Shown here piece by piece: positions 818-59,612 of a stretch of 64,000 nucleotides of DNA. The DNA lies in contig NZ_CP053538.1 in assembly GCF_013137895.1 (NCBI RefSeq), forward strand, positions 3,999,001 through 4,063,000, given 5' to 3'. Below the pieces are notes generated by a model. The model had not been told where the DNA came from, ran no database searches, and saw only the letters and a list, made by a program, of their open reading frames with translations. Made by a program: the position numbers and the translations under genes. This DNA is from Hymenobacter taeanensis (GTDB lineage: Bacteria; Bacteroidota; Bacteroidia; Cytophagales; Hymenobacteraceae). The first letter of the stretch is position 1. Every line of letters begins with the position of its first letter.

Positions 818-3790
818 TTAGTGTAGAATTAACTGCTGTGGAATGAGAGGGAGCCCAGTACCCTGTAGATACAGTAGGTATACGCCAGCATTTAAGAAAG
901 CAGGTAGTTGCAGAGGAACCGCCAGTTGGGTGATTTTATTTAGGGTATGGTTTAGAACAGTACGACCACTCAAGTCACGCAGAGTAATTTGTACAGGCTC
1001 CGGAGTAGCCTTTGGCAGTAACAGCGTTACGCGGTCAGTGGCCGGATTCGGGTACAGGGCGAATTGGTTTGACTGCTCTTTCGCTACAGCCAGAATGCTT
1101 GCACGAAGTAGAACGGTTTTTATCTCAGAGTAGCGTACGCCACTGGCACCCGACTGCCGCAACCGGTAAAAAGCCTGTTTCATATTTGCTACTCCCTGAT
1201 CCTGAAAGGTGTACTTCAGCGGTTGGGCCGTAATGCCCTGACTGGCAACAAGGGCAATTTGCTGCCACGTACTGGCATCAGGGGAACGCTCTACGGCATA
1301 GCCGGCCGTGCTGCCTTCGCTGGTCATAGACCATTCCAAATCCACTGTGCCCGGCTGTGGCTGAGCCGCGGTAAAGCTCGACATCTGGGTTGAAAGCGGG
1401 TTGATAGTTGGCGATAGAGAGCCAAACGTAAAGATGCCAGAGCCGCTGACCGGTTGGCCCGATGCTACAACGCCTGCGCTCAAACCGCCCCCCAGGCTAC
1501 TATTTCCGACAGTTGTCCAAGCACTGCCATTATAGCGTGCTACCTGCAGATCCTGCGAAAAGTCGTCTATGCCACTGCGGAAAGCGTTTTCCCAATACAG
1601 TCCTACCGTAACCGGACTAGCTGAGGCTGACCCTTCCAAAATCCAGTGTTCAACCTGGCTTACCTCACTCAAGGGGGCCGTAGCCGTGCGAATGGTGAAA
1701 GAAGCCGGTATGTATTCAGCTGTGAAAGTCGTAGTAGTGTCTGCTGGAGCCGTAATGCTTAGTCGGGCCCATTGGCCGCCTTTCCCCAGGGGAAACACAA
1801 ATGCCTGCCCGCCTTGCTTACGGATTGGACCTTCAACATAAGAACTGGGGCTGCCTTCCGTGGCCGTGGCGTGGTTGCTGACGGTAAGCAGGGCAGAGGG
1901 GGAGGTTTGCAGCAGCCCTTGGATTAATGTAAGGGCCCCCGTCAGGGTAAAAGGAGCGGCCATGGTCAGGTTTTTACCAGGCGCATTCAGCGTCAGGTTC
2001 TGTAAGGAGGTAGCCCCGGTGTTAACCAGAGTCAGGCTGCGTGTTACCATCACATCACCCTTATAGAGGCCGTCAGTGGCGTTTAGGGTGCCATTGTCAG
2101 CTAGCAGATTAGCTGCCTCTTGTAGAGGGGGTACTGGTCCGGCCTGCGGGCTGTTAGCCTCTGTATGCAGATACGCATACATGGTGGCAGCGCCAGATGC
2201 TGCTCCAGCATCGGCGGCGGTATGGAGATAGGGCGAAAAGTCAATCAGGCCGGTAGGCGCAAAGCTGGATACAGGCGCAAAATTGGTAGTTGGCCCGCCT
2301 AACGTTACCACAGACCCGTCGATGCCCGCTGTGCCGCGCACGGTGGCGGGTAGGGAACTGCCGAGCCAGTTCAATGAAGCATCTACTACGTTGGTCAGGT
2401 TAATAGCCCGAATGGCCGTGACGCAGCTATCTAATCGGTTGCCTCGAACACTGTCGCCTACGGAGGGAAGGTAGCCGTTGCGGGACATGTTAAAGAAAGG
2501 GGTGGCGCCGGTGCTATTGTCAGGCCGGTCCTGCACCTGCACCGCAATCTGACACTGCGCAACCACATTGCCGAAAACTTTGTTGCTGATGCCCTCTATA
2601 ACCACACCAAACCCATTAAAAAAGCTAGCTGAGCTGGATGCATCGGCCAAGAAGCCACGAATGGTATTTCCCTGAATGTAAGCACCACCCGTGAGTAAGT
2701 CGCCGTTACGGCCGCCGCCCGCATTAATAACGTTCCGGTCACGGTCAATGAATACAATGCCCGCATGATCAATGCTTAGGGCTGCCGAGGCACTCAAGGG
2801 GCGAGCTATATAGTTGTTGCGCACCACGAAACTGCCCGCCCCGCTCCGCTGACCATTACCGGTACACGATTTCAGCTCCATACCTACCGCCGCATTGTTT
2901 CGGATAATATTGCCTTCAATAAGGGCGGACGAGCTGGTAAAGGTGCCATTGGCGTCGCGCTGACCTCCGGCGCCTAACACAGCCAAAGCTGGCTCCAGGT
3001 TTTGCTCGAACAGGTTACCGCGCACAACCAGCCCGCTCACGCTGCCATCGTTCACATCGATGCCGCTACGGCGGTTGCCCTCGAACACGCCGTTCTCAAT
3101 CACAATATTCTGCTTGTGGCCGTTTACCAGAAACAAGCCACGGCCTGCTCCATTACTGTTGGTGTTGGCTCCCTCAGCGCTGCGAGAAGCCGTTACTCGC
3201 CGGAAGGTAAGGTTTTGAGCACCTCCCAGGCAGTTCCAGAAAATACCGCACTGTCGGTTGGCAATAGTTTCCACGTCTTCTACCAACACGTTGGCGCGTG
3301 CTGCGCCATCGGTCTGGATGCCGAAGTCGTAAGCACGTATGGTGAGGTTAGCAATCCGGAGAGGCTGAGTGCTTGTGCCGCCGCTGGCAGTGAGCAGCAG
3401 CCCAACCTCCAGGGTTTGGGTTGGATTAGGCTGGAGGCCGCCCTCGAAAATGGTTGCACTCGCTGGTTGGGCCGTGGCAGTACCTGCTCCTCGCAGGTTC
3501 ACGTTCTTATTGAGGATGATACGCTCCTTATAGGTGCCAGCGTCGATAAAAATCGTTTGGGTACCGGAATCTGCCTGGGCCAGGGCCCGAGCAATTGTGG
3601 CGTAAGGCGCCGCCGTGGAGCCGTTGCCAGTCGCATCACTTCCGGCAGCGGTAGTGAAAACGTCGCCGGTAGTTGCGGCGTCATTCACATATAAGGCAAC
3701 CGTGCTGCTCGGCGCCTGGGCCGTAGCCTGCCCCAAAGACAGCCCAAGCATCAGCAGGAATGAGCAAACGTAAGGTAGAGTTGTTGTCAT
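818..3790 (-). CDS. secreted right-handed beta-helix protein with T9SS sorting domain
   Basis: A 990-residue exported protein. Residues 1-25 form a signal peptide ending AQA. The next stretch (DATGNGSTAAPYATIARAL) is the DUF1565-like entry to a parallel beta-helix, followed to about residue 560 by repeats rich in N-x-I and G-N turns, typical of pectate-lyase-like folds that bind or cut polysaccharide. The middle and C-terminal parts look like Ig-like or fibronectin-like surface modules. The last 80 or so residues, from FALYPNPATDRVTL to a beta-rich end, match the type A C-terminal sorting domain of the type IX secretion system, so the product should reach the surface or medium. I cannot assign a catalytic site; it may be an adhesin rather than an enzyme. 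It stands alone and ends at a strong terminator. Confidence 0.85.
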   Translation of the reverse strand: MTTTLPYVCSFLLMLGLSLGQATAQAPSSTVALYVNDAATTGDVFTTAAGSDATGNGSTAAPYATIARALAQADSGTQTIFIDAGTYKERIILNKNVNLRGAGTATAQPASATIFEGGLQPNPTQTLEVGLLLTASGGTSTQPLRIANLTIRAYDFGIQTDGAARANVLVEDVETIANRQCGIFWNCLGGAQNLTFRRVTASRSAEGANTNSNGAGRGLFLVNGHKQNIVIENGVFEGNRRSGIDVNDGSVSGLVVRGNLFEQNLEPALAVLGAGGQRDANGTFTSSSALIEGNIIRNNAAVGMELKSCTGNGQRSGAGSFVVRNNYIARPLSASAALSIDHAGIVFIDRDRNVINAGGGRNGDLLTGGAYIQGNTIRGFLADASSSASFFNGFGVVIEGISNKVFGNVVAQCQIAVQVQDRPDNSTGATPFFNMSRNGYLPSVGDSVRGNRLDSCVTAIRAINLTNVVDASLNWLGSSLPATVRGTAGIDGSVVTLGGPTTNFAPVSSFAPTGLIDFSPYLHTAADAGAASGAATMYAYLHTEANSPQAGPVPPLQEAANLLADNGTLNATDGLYKGDVMVTRSLTLVNTGATSLQNLTLNAPGKNLTMAAPFTLTGALTLIQGLLQTSPSALLTVSNHATATEGSPSSYVEGPIRKQGGQAFVFPLGKGGQWARLSITAPADTTTTFTAEYIPASFTIRTATAPLSEVSQVEHWILEGSASASPVTVGLYWENAFRSGIDDFSQDLQVARYNGSAWTTVGNSSLGGGLSAGVVASGQPVSGSGIFTFGSLSPTINPLSTQMSSFTAAQPQPGTVDLEWSMTSEGSTAGYAVERSPDASTWQQIALVASQGITAQPLKYTFQDQGVANMKQAFYRLRQSGASGVRYSEIKTVLLRASILAVAKEQSNQFALYPNPATDRVTLLLPKATPEPVQITLRDLSGRTVLNHTLNKITQLAVPLQLPAFLNAGVYLLYLQGTGLPLIPQQLILH

Positions 3791-24771: not shown

Positions 24772-25770
24772 ATGAAAAAAGTTCTTCTTAGCCTGCTGCC
24801 CGTTCTTTGGCTGGGCATAGTTAAGCCCGCTGTTGCCCAGGTATATACCGCCTCCGACCCGCTGGCGCATACCTACTCTATTGTAGCCCGCGACCCGCAA
24901 ACCGGCGACTTTGCCGTGGCCGTGCAAAGCCACTGGTTTTCAGTGGGCACATCCGTCAGTTGGGCTGAGGCCGGAGTAGGCGCCGTGGCTACGCAGTCTT
25001 TCACCAACAAATCATTTGGCCCGCGCGGCCTGGCCCTGCTGAAAAGTGGTAAGTCGGCCCAGGAGGCCCTTGATGAGCTGCTGCGCACGGATGAAGGCCG
25101 CGACGTTCGGCAGGTAGCCATAGTCGATAACCAAGGGCGTGTGGCTACTCATACCGGTGCTAAGTGCATTGATATGGCTGGGCACCGCCAAGGCAGTCAG
25201 TTTTCGGTGCAGGCTAATATGATGCTCAACAATACGGTGCCCGCCGCCATGCAGAAAGCGTATGAGCAAAATGCCAAGTTGCCCTTCGCTGAGCGGGTGG
25301 TATCGGCGCTACAGGCTGCCCAGGCCGCTGGCGGCGACATACGGGGGCGGCAGTCGGCGGCCCTGCTGGTGGTGCGCGCCAAAGCCACTGATGCCCCCTG
25401 GACCGACCGCCTCATTGACCTGCGCGTAGATGATGCCGCCGAGCCCCTGCGCGAGCTAAGCCGCCTGCTGAGCTTACACCGGGCCTATGAGCACATGAAT
25501 GCCGGTGACCTGGCCGTGGAGAAAAACGACGTGCCGGGCGCCATCCGGGAGTATGAAGCCGCCGAAAAGCTTTTCCCACAAAACCTGGAAATGAAGTACT
25601 GGCACGCCATCAGCCTGGCCAATAAGCAACAGGTACCCGCTGCCCTCAAACTGCTGGCTCCTATTTTCAAGCAAGACCCTAACTGGCGCACGCTCACGCA
25701 ACGCCTTCCCAAAGTAGGCCTGCTGACCGTTACTGATGCGGAGCTGAAACAGATACTGGCCCTTAAATAG
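24772..25770 (+). CDS. exported DUF1028 protein with C-terminal TPR-like tail
   Basis: 332 residues from ATG 24772, which begins a signal peptide (MKKVLLSLLPVLWLGIVKPA, cut near VAQ). The frame is open to 24685, but the -7-like TATCTTGC at 24732-24739 lies between. Residues 25-225 match DUF1028, an Ntn-hydrolase-like family: HTYSIVARDPQTGDFAVAVQ, AGVGAVATQSF, HTGAKCIDMAG and QANMMLNN. The C-terminal 100 residues (NAGDLAVEKNDVPGAIREYE, then EMKYWHAISLANKQ) look like two or three TPR helices. The family's reaction is unknown to me; an autoprocessed periplasmic hydrolase is a guess. It is monocistronic. Confidence 0.85.
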   Translation: MKKVLLSLLPVLWLGIVKPAVAQVYTASDPLAHTYSIVARDPQTGDFAVAVQSHWFSVGTSVSWAEAGVGAVATQSFTNKSFGPRGLALLKSGKSAQEALDELLRTDEGRDVRQVAIVDNQGRVATHTGAKCIDMAGHRQGSQFSVQANMMLNNTVPAAMQKAYEQNAKLPFAERVVSALQAAQAAGGDIRGRQSAALLVVRAKATDAPWTDRLIDLRVDDAAEPLRELSRLLSLHRAYEHMNAGDLAVEKNDVPGAIREYEAAEKLFPQNLEMKYWHAISLANKQQVPAALKLLAPIFKQDPNWRTLTQRLPKVGLLTVTDAELKQILALK

Positions 25771-49149: not shown

Positions 49150-49611
49150 CTAGCGCACCCGCGTCCAGTAATGAGAGCGGCCAATGAAGGGAAAGCCAAT
49201 GTAGCCCTTCACCTCCAGGCGGTTTTTGGAAAGGAGGCGAAGATAGCAGGAGTAGGTGCGGCCATTATTGGGGTCATAGATTTCGCCGTCTTCCCAGCGT
49301 GCGTCACTGGCATCGTAGCGCAGGCCGCGCAGAACCTGCAGGTTTAGGAGCGGATGCTGGCGCTTTGTAGCGTCGGGGTTATGAGCATCAAGCTGGGGCC
49401 TGCGGGCGGCGCTATCCGCCATGGGCTGCAGCCACACCAGCTTGCCGCACAGCTGCTTATCGTTGCAGGTATACAGCTCAATGTGCGTGTTGCTGGAGTC
49501 ATCAAGCCAGACACCAACGGGAGAGAGGCCCTGGCCCAAGCCTGTGGTTGAGACGCACAGGCCTAGGGCCAGGGCAGATAAACGCATAAACCAAGGAGTG
49601 CGCTGTGTCAT
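49150..49611 (-). CDS. exported DUF2147 protein (paralogue 1)
   Basis: 153 residues from ATG 49611 with a signal peptide. DUF2147 signatures: SPVGVWLDDSSNTHIELYTC, LCGKLVWL, GEIYDPNNGRTYSC and LEVKGYIGFPFIGRS, ending in TRVR. The fold is a small beta barrel; no enzyme activity is established. It follows the second DUF2147 gene on the same strand, past a terminator, so each is expressed alone. The pair is a tandem duplication; they share the frame of motifs but only moderate identity. Confidence 0.88.
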   Translation of the reverse strand: MTQRTPWFMRLSALALGLCVSTTGLGQGLSPVGVWLDDSSNTHIELYTCNDKQLCGKLVWLQPMADSAARRPQLDAHNPDATKRQHPLLNLQVLRGLRYDASDARWEDGEIYDPNNGRTYSCYLRLLSKNRLEVKGYIGFPFIGRSHYWTRVR

Positions 49612-49686
49612 AAGTTGCTCTCTAAAGCAATAGGAAGGAGTGCTGATGATGCTTACTACCAAGTAACGGTAAGATAATTAACAAAA

Positions 49687-49745: not shown

Positions 49746-50186
49746 CTAGCGTACTCGCGTCCAGGTCTGAGACTTACCAATCAGCGAGAAGCCAATGTAG
49801 CCTTTCACCTCCATGGTGTTCTGGTTTTCCATCTTCATGTAGCAGGAGTAAGTTTTGCCGCTTTCGGGGTCATAGATCTTACCGTCGTCCCACTTATTGT
49901 CTTCGTCATACTCAAAGCCCTGCATAAATACCAGGCCCAGGCGCGGACGGCTGCGCAGCTTGGGGTCGGGGTTCATGGAGTCAGTTTTGGGCTTGCCGGT
50001 CTTAGGATCGTTCGGGACCGTGAGCGATACAATTTTGCCACAGAGCTTATTGCCACACTGGTAAATCTCAAAGGTGGCTTTCTTCTCGGAGTTGGTCCAG
50101 ACGCCCAAGGGGGAGAGTTTTTGGGCCGAGGCAGCGCCAATCACACCAAGCAACAGGGTTAGACAAAGGAACAGGGTTTTTCTCAT
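49746..50186 (-). CDS. exported DUF2147 protein (paralogue 2)
   Basis: 146 residues with a signal peptide (MRKTLFLCLTLLLGVIGAAS). DUF2147 signatures are SPLGVWTNSEKKATFEIYQC, KLCGKIVSL, GKIYDPESGKTYSC and MEVKGYIGFSLIGKSQTWTR. More Lys/Asp-rich than the neighbour copy. Expected in the periplasm; function unknown. Two Cys pairs are shared by both copies and may form disulfides. Confidence 0.9.
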   Translation of the reverse strand: MRKTLFLCLTLLLGVIGAASAQKLSPLGVWTNSEKKATFEIYQCGNKLCGKIVSLTVPNDPKTGKPKTDSMNPDPKLRSRPRLGLVFMQGFEYDEDNKWDDGKIYDPESGKTYSCYMKMENQNTMEVKGYIGFSLIGKSQTWTRVR

Positions 50187-50401
50187 GGTGATAGGGAAGT
50201 GTGGGTTTTTCGTGAAAAAGATAAAACAAAAACTGATCAGTCCAGCCAGTTACCTGTAGTGTTTGTGCGCAGAGGAATAGACAAGTTTGAGGCCAGAGAA
50301 AATAGAGTGGGCATTTGCTACCGTGGTAAAAAAATAAAGCCCCTGATCATCAAGGGTATGCCCAGTAAACGGGCTGGGGCGCGTAAATAATGGCCTTTTT
50401 A

Positions 50402-50432
50402 TTTTGAACCATCCGGGGGGATTTTAACTTTA
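50402..50432 (+). promoter_or_regulatory. promoter TTTTG-N18-TAACTTTA
   Basis: A -33 TTG (50404-50406) and a -7 TAACTTTA (50425-50432, seven of eight match to TAnnTTTG) with 18 bases between, within the Bacteroidota range. Predicted transcription start near 50438. Confidence 0.6.
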
Positions 50433-50528
50433 CTAACCGTAGCGAGTGCTACAGCCCCCGCCAAGCAGCCCTAAGGTGCTGGGAAGCGAAGCCCGGGTTA
50501 TGTCGGATCTAAAGAAAGGAGGTACAAA

Positions 50529-50600
50529 ATGTCTAGTAGTCCCAAACAAATCCTGCCAAGCCTGTCGAATGTAGTCCGCTTCACCGCCGGACGCGCTTAA
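50529..50600 (+). CDS. 23-codon ORF with an unusually strong Shine-Dalgarno
   Basis: AGAAAGGAGGT (50513-50523) precedes ATG 50529 by five bases and is complementary over 11 bases to the 16S rRNA end ACCUCCUUUCU as I recall it for Bacteroidota. The ORF encodes a 23-residue basic peptide (begins MSSSPKQ, ends RFTAGRA). No other gene in the window has such an SD. The peptide matches nothing I know. It may encode a functional small protein, or translation of it may serve as a sensor of ribosome state. Confidence 0.4.
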   Translation: MSSSPKQILPSLSNVVRFTAGRA

Positions 50601-50724
50601 CAACAGCTTTCGCGCGGAATTCGCTCCTATTTGAGTTATTCCCGCATTCTGGCAAGGTCTTACTTGATAAGTGGATGATGGGGCTGTACCCCAGACTCAT
50701 CGCTTGGTAAGATTTGAAGGATTA

Positions 50725-50786
50725 GATGCCCGGTTCGCCCAGCAGCCCTACATGGTACTGCATAGGCGACCGGGCATCGCTTTTTT
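50725..50786 (+). terminator. terminator of the candidate RNA
   Basis: GATGCCCGGTTCGCC (50725-50739) pairs with GGCGACCGGGCATC (50765-50778) with one bulge, followed by TTTTTT at 50781-50786. Confidence 0.8.
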
Positions 50787-50886
50787 AGGGATAGTTGAAA
50801 TAGGAGTGATGAGTTTACGAAATGGCACAACGAAGCAGTAGCAGAGCTCCTAGGCCACTGCATATAGTCTGCTAATCACCAAATTA

Positions 50887-51453
50887 CTATAGCACCCGGC
50901 GGACCTGCATAAAGCGGCGCTCGTAGTCGGTGCCCTCTACCTGGCTGACTTTCACGCCAGACTCGCGGCGCGCTGAAGAGGAATGCACAAAGCGTAGGGG
51001 CTGGCCGGGGTCAGAGATAACAATGCCCGCGTGCCCGGGAGAGGTTGAATTGCTGGCCGTACCGGTAAATACTACAATATCGCCGCGGCGGGCTTCCTGG
51101 CGCGGCACACTTCTGCCAATATTTATAAGTAAGGCTGTAGAGTGCGGAACAGGGACTTTGTAACGGGCAAAAACGTAGTTCACGAAGCCCGAGCAATCAA
51201 AGCCGGTTGCGGGAGTACTACCGGCGTAGCAGTAGTTGGTGCCTAGTTGGCGCATGGCAAAGGCCACTATACTATCGGCGCGCACGGGTACCCGCTTGCT
51301 GCTGACCACATAAGCTACGCGCTGCACCGGTGTAGCGGCCGGAACACTGGTGCCGGTGGCTACGGGCACGGCCGCAGGACGTAGGTGCACCCAGGCCAGG
51401 CGGCCTAGCAGCACACCAGCTAAGGTCAGGAAAACAAGCCAAATGTATCGCAT
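50887..51453 (-). CDS. NlpC/P60 cell-wall peptidase
   Basis: 188 residues. The N terminus has a membrane helix or signal anchor (IWLVFLTLAGVLLGRLAW). The NlpC/P60 domain has the catalytic Cys87 in GFDCSGFVNY, His141 in PGHAGIVIS and the third polar residue His157 in RFVHSSS. It should cut D-iGlu-L-Lys/mDap bonds in peptidoglycan from the periplasmic side. Short form without SH3 or LysM domains. Single gene. Confidence 0.9.
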   Translation of the reverse strand: MRYIWLVFLTLAGVLLGRLAWVHLRPAAVPVATGTSVPAATPVQRVAYVVSSKRVPVRADSIVAFAMRQLGTNYCYAGSTPATGFDCSGFVNYVFARYKVPVPHSTALLINIGRSVPRQEARRGDIVVFTGTASNSTSPGHAGIVISDPGQPLRFVHSSSARRESGVKVSQVEGTDYERRFMQVRRVL

Positions 51454-58195: not shown

Positions 58196-58253
58196 CTGAG
58201 CATATGGTGATGGATTTCCACCGCGAACCGCCAGCAGCCCCGGCTCTGCGCTG

Positions 58254-59612
58254 ATGATTCCTACTGAACGGCTGCTCACGTTGGGCGGCTGCCTGCTTCA
58301 TCGTGTTGTTCGCCTTATGCCTCTTCGTCCCGTTTCTCTTACTCACTTGTTCTCAGGGCTGCGCGCCCTCAACCTGCCTGCTACCCTGTATTTTATATTG
58401 CGGTGGTTGGTGCTCAGCGCATTAATTGGCGTGTTGGCTGGTTCGGCATCGGCCTACTTTCTGGTTTCTCTGGAGTGGGTAACAACTTACCGCGAGCTGC
58501 ACGAGTGGATCATTATGTGGCTGCCCCTGGCCGGGCTGGTTGTAGGAGCTGGGTACCATTACTTTGGTGATAGGGTAGCGCGCGGCAACAATCTGGTATT
58601 AGAGGAGATTCATGCGCCCCGCATGCTCATTCCGCTCCGGCTGGTACCGCTGGTGCTGGGCGGCACGCTTATCACGCACCTGTTTGGGGGCTCAGCGGGC
58701 CGTGAGGGGACAGCCGTGCAAATGGGTGGCGCCCTAGCCGACCAGCTTACCCGCGTCTTTCGGCTCCGGCCCCGCGACCGGCGCCTGTTGCTTATTGCGG
58801 GCATGAGTGCCGGCTTTGCTTCGGTGTTTGGTACGCCGCTGGCAGGAGCAGTATTTGGGCTGGAGGTGTTTCTGCTGGGCACTATTCGGTACGATGCCGT
58901 GCTACCGGCCTTCCTGGCCGCCGTCAGCGCCGATTTTGTTACCCGAGCCTGGGGCGTAGGCCACACGCACTACCCGCAGCTGGCTGCACTGCCTCTCACG
59001 CCCCTTGGGCTGGGCTGCACCTTACTGGCCGGGGGGCTATTTGGGCTCACCGCGCGCAGTTTCGCAACGCTTACTCACTGGGTTAGCCGGCAGTTTGCCC
59101 GGGTGGCCTACGCACCCTTGCGGCCCGTATTAGGGGGGGCGCTGGTGGTGGCAGCCATGTGGAGTTTGGGCACTACTCGCTACAGTGGCCTAGGGGTGCC
59201 AGTAATTGTGGAGGCGTTTCACGTGACTCTGCCGCCACTTGATTTCACCCTGAAATTGCTGCTTACGGCCCTCACCCTAGGTAGCGGCTTTAAGGGAGGA
59301 GAGGTTACCCCGCTGTTTTTTATTGGGGCTACGCTGGGTAGCGCGCTATCAATGGTGCTGCCGCTGCCGGTGGCGCTATTGGCGGCCATGGGCTTTGTGG
59401 CCGTGTTTGCAGGAGCCGCCAACACCCCGCTGGCCTGTACGCTCATGGGGCTGGAGCTATTTGGCATTCAGGGAGGCGTTTATTTGGGGCTAGCGTGCGT
59501 AGTGGCCTACTTATTTTCGGGGCACCGGGGTATCTACTCAGCCCAGATGATTGGCCAGGCCAAGCACCTGGGCCTGGGCCGCGAACAAGGCAAGCGCTTA
59601 GGTGAGCTATAG
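58254..59612 (+). CDS. ClC-family chloride channel/transporter
   Basis: 452 residues, about ten membrane helices. The ClC signature is GGSAGREGTAVQMGGAL (family GREGP, here GREGT) with the gating Glu. Later signatures include FGTPLAGAVFGLE and FKGGEVTPLFFIGATLG with FAGAANTPLACTLMGLELF. It moves Cl- or another halide, possibly with H+, at the inner membrane. The ATG at 58254 overlaps the TGA of a 16-codon upstream ORF (TGATG), which suggests coupled translation and favours this start over ATG 58317. It lacks CBS domains. The next gene, copA, is on the same strand 277 bases away. Confidence 0.9.
   Translation: MIPTERLLTLGGCLLHRVVRLMPLRPVSLTHLFSGLRALNLPATLYFILRWLVLSALIGVLAGSASAYFLVSLEWVTTYRELHEWIIMWLPLAGLVVGAGYHYFGDRVARGNNLVLEEIHAPRMLIPLRLVPLVLGGTLITHLFGGSAGREGTAVQMGGALADQLTRVFRLRPRDRRLLLIAGMSAGFASVFGTPLAGAVFGLEVFLLGTIRYDAVLPAFLAAVSADFVTRAWGVGHTHYPQLAALPLTPLGLGCTLLAGGLFGLTARSFATLTHWVSRQFARVAYAPLRPVLGGALVVAAMWSLGTTRYSGLGVPVIVEAFHVTLPPLDFTLKLLLTALTLGSGFKGGEVTPLFFIGATLGSALSMVLPLPVALLAAMGFVAVFAGAANTPLACTLMGLELFGIQGGVYLGLACVVAYLFSGHRGIYSAQMIGQAKHLGLGREQGKRLGEL

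Follow-up and report, generated by a model that had tools for sequence, protein, structure and literature searches.

A stand-alone, structured RNA carrying one short translated ORF is predicted on the plus strand of the Hymenobacter taeanensis genome (4.88 Mb, a single contig), where it is present in single copy, flanked by DUF2147 and NlpC/P60 genes on the minus strand. The unit is conserved across Hymenobacteraceae and scattered in other Bacteroidia, and this conservation is the strongest evidence that it exceeds chance. Comparison of the copies supports the view that the conserved structured RNA contains an ORF that is translated, together with a Shine-Dalgarno (SD) sequence that is kept complementary to the 16S rRNA tail. 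We tentatively read the unit, with somewhat less than even confidence, as a translation-gated RNA switch that reads the amount of 30S subunits with an exposed anti-SD; the RNA may thus report on ribosome state. Positions refer to the window, the stretch of 64,000 nucleotides that was analysed, and the features of the unit are collected in Table 1.

Table 1 Features of the unit and their positions in the window
Feature	Position	Strand	Sequence and remarks
Promoter (predicted)	50402..50432	+	TTTTGAAC at 50402-50409, TAACTTTA at 50425-50432; 18-nt spacer after TTTG
Predicted RNA	50437..50786	+	About 350 nt; ends placed from promoter and terminator positions
P1, 5'-terminal hairpin	50439..50452	+	GUAGC-GAGU-GCUAC; RNAalifold, 38 copies
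P2 stem	50453..50499	+	AGCCC 50453-50457 with GGGUU 50495-50499; apical part variable
Linker between P2 and SD	50500..50512	+	AUGUCGGAUCUAA (50500-50509 = AUGUCGGAUC); AUGU near-invariant in 27 diverse copies
Extended Shine-Dalgarno	50513..50523	+	AGAAAGGAGGT (RNA AGAAAGGAGGU); complementary to the entire 11-nt 16S tail
ORF	50529..50600	+	23 codons and stop TAA; peptide MSSSPKQILPSLSNVVRFTAGRA
P5, 5' strand	50537..50542	+	UAGUCC, codons 3-5; pairs with GGAUUA 50719-50724
P4, 5' strand	50547..50561	+	CAAAUCCUGCCAAGC, codons 7-11; pairs with 50702-50716
P3 hairpin	50574..50592	+	Inside 3' part of the ORF; RNAalifold
P6, possible alternative helix	50655..50663	+	AGGUCUUAC with 50707-50715; exclusive with P4 here
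P4, 3' strand	50702..50716	+	GCUUGGUAAGAUUUG
P5, 3' strand	50719..50724	+	GGAUUA, conserved motif before terminator
Terminator hairpin and T-run	50725..50786	+	GC-rich arms 50725-50739 / 50765-50778; TTTTTT 50781-50786

Locus and transcript boundaries

The original prediction had placed a stand-alone transcription unit, flanked by a promoter and a terminator, at 50402..50787. Both elements are present and the stand-alone character of the unit held, but the transcribed unit probably starts near 50437 rather than at 50402; the 5' end of the predicted RNA would fall at or just before hairpin P1 and its 3' end at the T-run of the terminator. The arrangement TTTG-N18-TAACTTTA resembles what we take to be the Bacteroidota promoter type, and TTTTGAAC and TAACTTTA are both near-invariant in the conservation line over all 61 copies of the genus alignment; a sigma-70 scan found no promoter. 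The terminator stem shows double changes in RNAalifold, and a clean T-run is missing from several copies of the genus. A simple terminator scan left the hairpin at 50725-50778 unlisted, its loop being larger than the stated limit of the scan. The predicted fold of the RNA beats 100 of 100 shuffles (z -3.3), and the conserved block of the RNA is present in 60 of 60 other genomes of the same genus.

Two tandem DUF2147 genes, at 49150-49662 (-) and 49746-50186 (-), adjoin the unit; the names DUF2147 and NlpC/P60 were assigned from Pfam in the window only. Among 149 deduplicated units, a gene of the DUF2147 cluster lies upstream in 88 and one of the NlpC/P60 cluster downstream in 90, and both flanking genes, both on the minus strand, were found in 60, some loci being too short to show their flanks. 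Beyond the family, flanking genes were common only to the close relatives L064 and L066, which argues that the unit acts on its own. A leader or attenuator of a neighbouring gene was rejected, given that the next gene, NlpC/P60, is on the opposite strand and that the same two relatives are the only ones outside the family to share a downstream gene.

Distribution in Bacteroidia

A DNA search gave a match in 65 of 99 genomes, comprising all 61 of the genus, the source genome included, and 4 of the 38 genomes from elsewhere in the order. With a model of the 65-position core, 150 of 150 family genomes matched at E <= 0.01; a second match occurred in 6 of the 150, the only one listed having E 0.001. 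A model built from 27 diverse copies matched 54 of 291 genomes of the order at E <= 1.4e-8, distributed as 45/45 in family f1, 7/8 in f5, 1/1 in f17 and 1/10 in f20, where the family denominators were counted from the listing of another sample of the same size. At E <= 5.1e-8, nine of the 395 genomes of the class sample matched (four of the genus, four of family f23 and one of f51). Copies outside the family are rare, with five in the 395-genome class sample and nine in the 291-genome order sample, and the RNA therefore cannot be a general sensor; the absences are soft because the searches apply strict filters above 40 genomes.

An exact pattern, which requires the SD, was found in named genomes in 101 stretches, 81 of them in Hymenobacter. 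The 20 others came from Rufibacter, Adhaeribacter, Nafulsella turpanensis, Rhodocytophaga aerolata, Anditalea andensis, a Fulvivirgaceae isolate, a Marivirga MAG and other Bacteroidota MAGs. On one 191-kb contig of Hymenobacter profundi the unit occurs twice, as identical copies in opposite orientation (L243 and L323), which may reflect duplication or an assembly effect. Weaker matches were set aside: three genomes of the class sample matched at E 4e-4 to 6e-4, of which L230 and L231 are without P1 or terminator by eye and L232 is without an SD-like site, and eight further matches at E 8e-4 to 0.0075 (L183 and L186-L192) were treated as chance after a scan for SD-like sites only.

An extended Shine-Dalgarno sequence complementary to the 16S tail

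The 11-base SD that had been reported five bases before an ATG was recovered at that spacing, with ACAAA separating AGAAAGGAGGT from the ATG at 50529. The 3' end of the 16S rRNA of the same genome, at two loci found by pattern, reads ..GGATCACCTCCTTTCT, and its tail ACCUCCUUUCU pairs at 11 of 11 positions with AGAAAGGAGGU; mature 16S rRNA presumably ends at UUUCU. Of 26 RNA-bearing genomes searched, 15 gave a match to the 16S pattern, which required ACCTCC, and TTTCT follows at each of the 30 loci read.

The motif AGAAAGGAGGT-N4-12-ATG occurs once in the 4.88-Mb genome, against no control matches. For AAGGAGG-N3-10-ATG the count is 55, below the 73 of the reversed control; SDs are therefore not generally used in this genome, as the original prediction had maintained for Bacteroidota. 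Its companion statement, that no other gene of the window has an SD, was nearly right: AGGAGG-N3-10-ATG gave 2 matches in the window against 3.5 expected, the second of them at 25061.

Because the 149 units had been gathered with an SD-like pattern, the constancy of the SD was recounted in 61 copies of the genus from a full-length search and in 62 of the 84 family copies from other genera. It is identical in 121 of these 123 copies (AGAAAGGAGGT in 61 of 61 and in 60 of 62), and the two exceptions, AGAGAGGAGGT and AGAAGGGAGGT, each change an A-U pair with the 16S tail to G-U and so preserve the pairing. Some bias remains in these figures, in that the other-genus copies came from a model trained on SD-bearing copies; the SD was part of the models by which the copies outside the genus were found. 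Outside the family, the SD of L065 is AGAAAGGGGGT, again with a G-U pair, and that of L184 has one mismatch, at the last base. One copy, L394 from a 75%-complete MAG, has a truncated SD (around 1010-1030), although its hairpin, ORF and 3' element are retained.

The complementarity covers the whole 11-nt tail and is the most conserved stretch of the unit. This would fit an RNA directed at the 16S tail itself, a decoy or assembly chaperone for 30S subunits with an exposed anti-SD, in which the ORF would serve only to let bound ribosomes leave. Such a role is improbable: it has no need for a kept stop codon, for the third-position bias of the ORF described below or for a helix over codons 3-12, and the action would require an abundant RNA.

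An upstream ORF starting from the AUG of the linker was considered and rejected, since its frame relative to the SD varies between copies (by eye). Elsewhere in the genome, the similar sites AAGGAGGGTGCTGAAAATG and AAGGAGGGTCTTGAAAATG were seen at G000:C1:1193529-1193547 and G000:C1:1403868-1403886; these are perhaps paralogous genes with SD-like leaders.

The small ORF

The 23-codon ORF was also confirmed. An ORF of 18-23 codons follows the SD by 3-5 nt in 148 of 149 units (121 with 23 codons), with start, stop and length kept in those 148; the sole exception, L183, is regarded as a false match and was left out before the structure tests. All 62 family copies from other genera have an ORF of 22 or 23 codons. 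Among 39 distinct Hymenobacter-type ORFs, pairwise differences at codon positions 1, 2 and 3 number 827, 999 and 2829, the third position taking 2829 of the 4655. All four codons are in use for Val15, and TCG, TCC and AGT for Ser13.

Many synonymous third-position changes, together with the kept start, stop and length, are what would be expected of a small-protein gene, in which the peptide would be the product and the SD and closed helix would control its synthesis. Within genera the peptide is conserved, a sign of a product as well and a point against pure gating. Between distant families, however, its conservation is not recognisable (MSSSPKQILPSLSNVVRFTAGRA versus MSCSNCNLINFITINAYRR), so that its sequence is less strictly kept than its translation and its length. 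We consider a small-protein gene unlikely, given also that P4/P5 constrains codons 3-12, that residue 21 follows the RNA pairing, that the upstream helices P1 and P2 need another reason, and that three peptides searched against NCBIfam gave no match. A type I toxin message encodes a short hydrophobic membrane peptide; by eye, the peptides of the units look polar to mixed.

Helices of the RNA

RNAalifold applied to 38 copies gave P1 to P5 and the terminator unprompted, with double changes in 22 of 76 pairs. The arms of P1 change together between genera (GUAGC/GCUAC, GAAGC/GCUUC, GUGGC/GCCAC and AUAAU/AUUAU). When P1 was located by its pairing, 4.93 of 5 pairs were formed against 4.31 after shuffling, a comparison that is partly circular because of the way in which the hairpin was located; when it was located by its loop motif alone, with many misplaced rows included, the values were 3.05 and 2.42, and 8 of 2000 shuffles reached the observed value. 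P2, which was also picked by RNAalifold, formed 5.90 of 7 pairs against 5.08 with shuffled partners in 105 unique copies, a value reached by 0 of 1000 shuffles. L185 and L239 were without a scored P1 in the P1/P2 test, and one copy was without a recognised linker. Within P3, one pair is C-G in 19, A-U in 17 and U-A in 2 of 38 copies, and a Gly/Val/Glu change at codon 21 goes along with it.

P4 joins ORF codons about 6-12 to the 3' element before the terminator. Its partners are CAAAUCCUGCCAAGC/GCUUGGUAAGAUUUG here, UCUUAGUAAGC/GCUUACUGAGA in L165, UCAAUUUCAU/AUGAAAUUGA in L180 and UUUUCAAACC/GGUUUGAAAA in L239 (Nafulsella). In 40 representatives the P4 score was 23.4, against 16.5 with shuffled partners (maximum 19.1; 0 of 2000 reached the observed value), and in 20 selected representatives it was 24.8 against 16.8. 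The own partner was preferred above all others in only 8 of 20 because many partners are similar. P4 is part of the minimum free energy structure of 34 of the 40. For P5, the observed value was reached by 0 of 2000 shuffles in the 40 representatives and by 3 of 2000 in 29 non-Hymenobacter copies; RNAalifold gives it no covariation within the genus because it is almost invariant there. L012 and L038, in which the 3' element was mis-assigned, were left out of the P4/P5 tests, and L239 and L320 were added for the 20-representative test. P4/P5 together pair codons 3-12 with the 3' element and leave the SD and AUG outside. The shuffle figures are not strict probabilities because shuffling ignores relatedness, and the independent changes seen in distant families are the stronger argument for the proposed helices.

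P6 is a possible second partner of the 3' element, with moderate support: 17.5 observed against 15.9 shuffled (maximum 16.8) in 77 copies. In 31 non-Hymenobacter copies the observed value was 15.1 and the shuffle maximum 15.4, so that at least 1 of 2000 shuffles exceeded it. Forcing P6 costs about 7 kcal/mol (-123.2 versus -130.1). In family f23 a helix comparable to P6 leaves P4 without overlap (by eye).

A conserved 3' element beside the terminator that has, in Hymenobacteraceae, two mutually exclusive partners would also suit a regulatory RNA that acts by base pairing, like RNAIII or SgrS, in which the freed 3' element would pair with target messages and the peptide would be a second function. 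We consider this improbable; the 3' element covaries with the ORF segment, as expected if the ORF is its partner.

Proposed mechanism

As described in one study (PMC9976891), ribosomes of Bacteroidia sequester the anti-SD in a pocket of bS21, bS18 and bS6, initiation relies on low structure, and strong-SD messages are translated more when bS21 is lost. The pairing potential of the SD, the ORF and the helices are read directly from the sequences, and from them we infer how the gate and its output could work. In the closed state of the proposed switch, codons 3-12 would be held against the 3' element before the terminator, with the SD and AUG outside the helix; P4/P5 would thereby cover the part that an initiating 30S subunit must load. 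Normal ribosomes, with the anti-SD tucked away, would initiate poorly here because they depend on start regions free of structure. Ribosomes with an exposed anti-SD, whether lacking bS21 or bS18 or immature, would dock through the 11-bp SD and initiate best. Translation of the 18-23 codons would then unwind P4/P5, free the 3' element and make a small peptide, and in Hymenobacteraceae the freed element could form the alternative hairpin P6. Candidates for the output are the opened RNA, its stability, or the peptide.

The gated switch is favoured by the retention of a full complement of the 16S tail in a genome without an excess of SD-ATG pairs, by the kept ORF, by the covariation of P2, P4 and P5 (P1 being more weakly tested) and by the presence of the unit in all 150 family genomes sampled. 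Against it count the SD itself, which is partly paired in predicted folds (mean unpaired 0.42 in 40 representatives) and truncated in L394, the lack of relation to the SDs of rpsU described below, and the weakness of P6 outside the genus.

Going further, it is conceivable, although rather doubtful, that the unit represents a new RNA class that measures anti-SD-exposed ribosomes and acts in trans, its signal being carried by either the opened RNA or the peptide. Were this so, it would be a message kept closed that only anti-SD-exposed ribosomes open, in bacteria whose normal ribosomes cannot use SD pairing. It is an open question why a perfect anti-SD persists in Bacteroidota although their ribosomes hide it; the best-studied user of this anti-SD is rpsU, and the unit offers a direct handle on whether these bacteria monitor the state of the 30S subunit. 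It also provides an SD reporter for the phylum that is natural and close to unique in its genome, as well as a structured RNA family suitable for inclusion in Rfam.

Relation to rpsU and to known RNAs

The rpsU messages of Flavobacteriales, which are subject to bS21 autoregulation, resemble the unit in having an extended SD that complements most of the 16S tail although the phylum ignores SDs, and the unit would likewise be expected to favour ribosomes with an exposed anti-SD (compare PMC9976891). Unlike those messages, the unit encodes a peptide of 18-23 codons and no ribosomal protein (neither bS21 nor bS18), stands alone, is closed by a covarying helix and is present where rpsU is without an SD.

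Extended SDs are described, in PMC9976891, as characteristic of rpsU across Bacteroidota. The rpsU gene of the source genome, at G000:C1:1019510 and away from the unit, is without an SD. A search of 32 genomes for rpsU gave 30 loci, from which 18 rpsU start regions were readable (11 from RNA-bearing and 7 from RNA-lacking genomes), the first Met of the frame being taken as the start; GGAGGT was present in one, that of G738, which has the RNA. A strong SD is thus absent alike from the rpsU of genomes with and without the RNA, save G738. The contrast with rpsU as the exception in the phylum is accordingly weaker than the original prediction stated. Its suggestion of a sensor, a dual-function RNA or a small protein fared unevenly: the comparisons are consistent with the sensor idea and with the dual-function label, but the rpsU of this genome lacks an SD and GGAGGT was found in 1 of 18, so there is no SD-bearing rpsU here to which the RNA could be a second sensor. 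Replacement by the RNA of a lost rpsU SD was unsupported, the 18 start regions showing no link between the RNA and an SD at rpsU. Overall, the rpsU starts sampled (L097 and L334-L362) are mostly without a strong SD, unlike the published generalisation for the phylum.

RNAIII/delta-hemolysin and SgrS/SgrT are dual-function, structured, stand-alone RNAs with one short ORF in a long-range fold. The unit is similar in having one short ORF and a long-range fold that involves the ORF, and it differs in having no Rfam match and in that the SD itself is its most conserved element. A dual-function RNA is expected to combine a conserved structure with a conserved ORF, and the covariation and the codon pattern point to both. 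In leader peptides and attenuators, translation of a short ORF changes the downstream pairing, and a terminator hairpin follows. The unit would share with them a short ORF whose translation must alter downstream pairing and a terminator hairpin after it; unlike them, it is followed by a gene in the opposite orientation, and outside the family its downstream genes are not conserved. The unit would thus work like an SD-sensing message and appears to be built like a dual-function RNA, membership in either group not being established.

The original prediction was to be abandoned if peptide and structure were not conserved in relatives, or if a known RNA explained the SD-like sequence. The peptide is conserved within genera and the structure in relatives, and Rfam supplied no known RNA: Rfam release 15, searched at the gathering score in the window and the loci of 16 relatives, gave no match within the unit, and a search of 50200-50900 at E up to 5 gave only a chance miRNA match. 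A tmRNA was rejected, as ARAGORN found none in the window and Rfam gave no match. Among the papers listed by searches of open-access PMC literature, preprints excluded, no title or abstract opening described such an RNA. The Rfam matches obtained lie outside the unit and are two in number: a fluoride riboswitch (RF01734) at 58197-58270 (+), at 43.3 bits and above the gathering score, and a cobalamin riboswitch (RF00174) at 1191-1417 (+) of L180, downstream of the homologue of the unit in a Bacteroidia genome.
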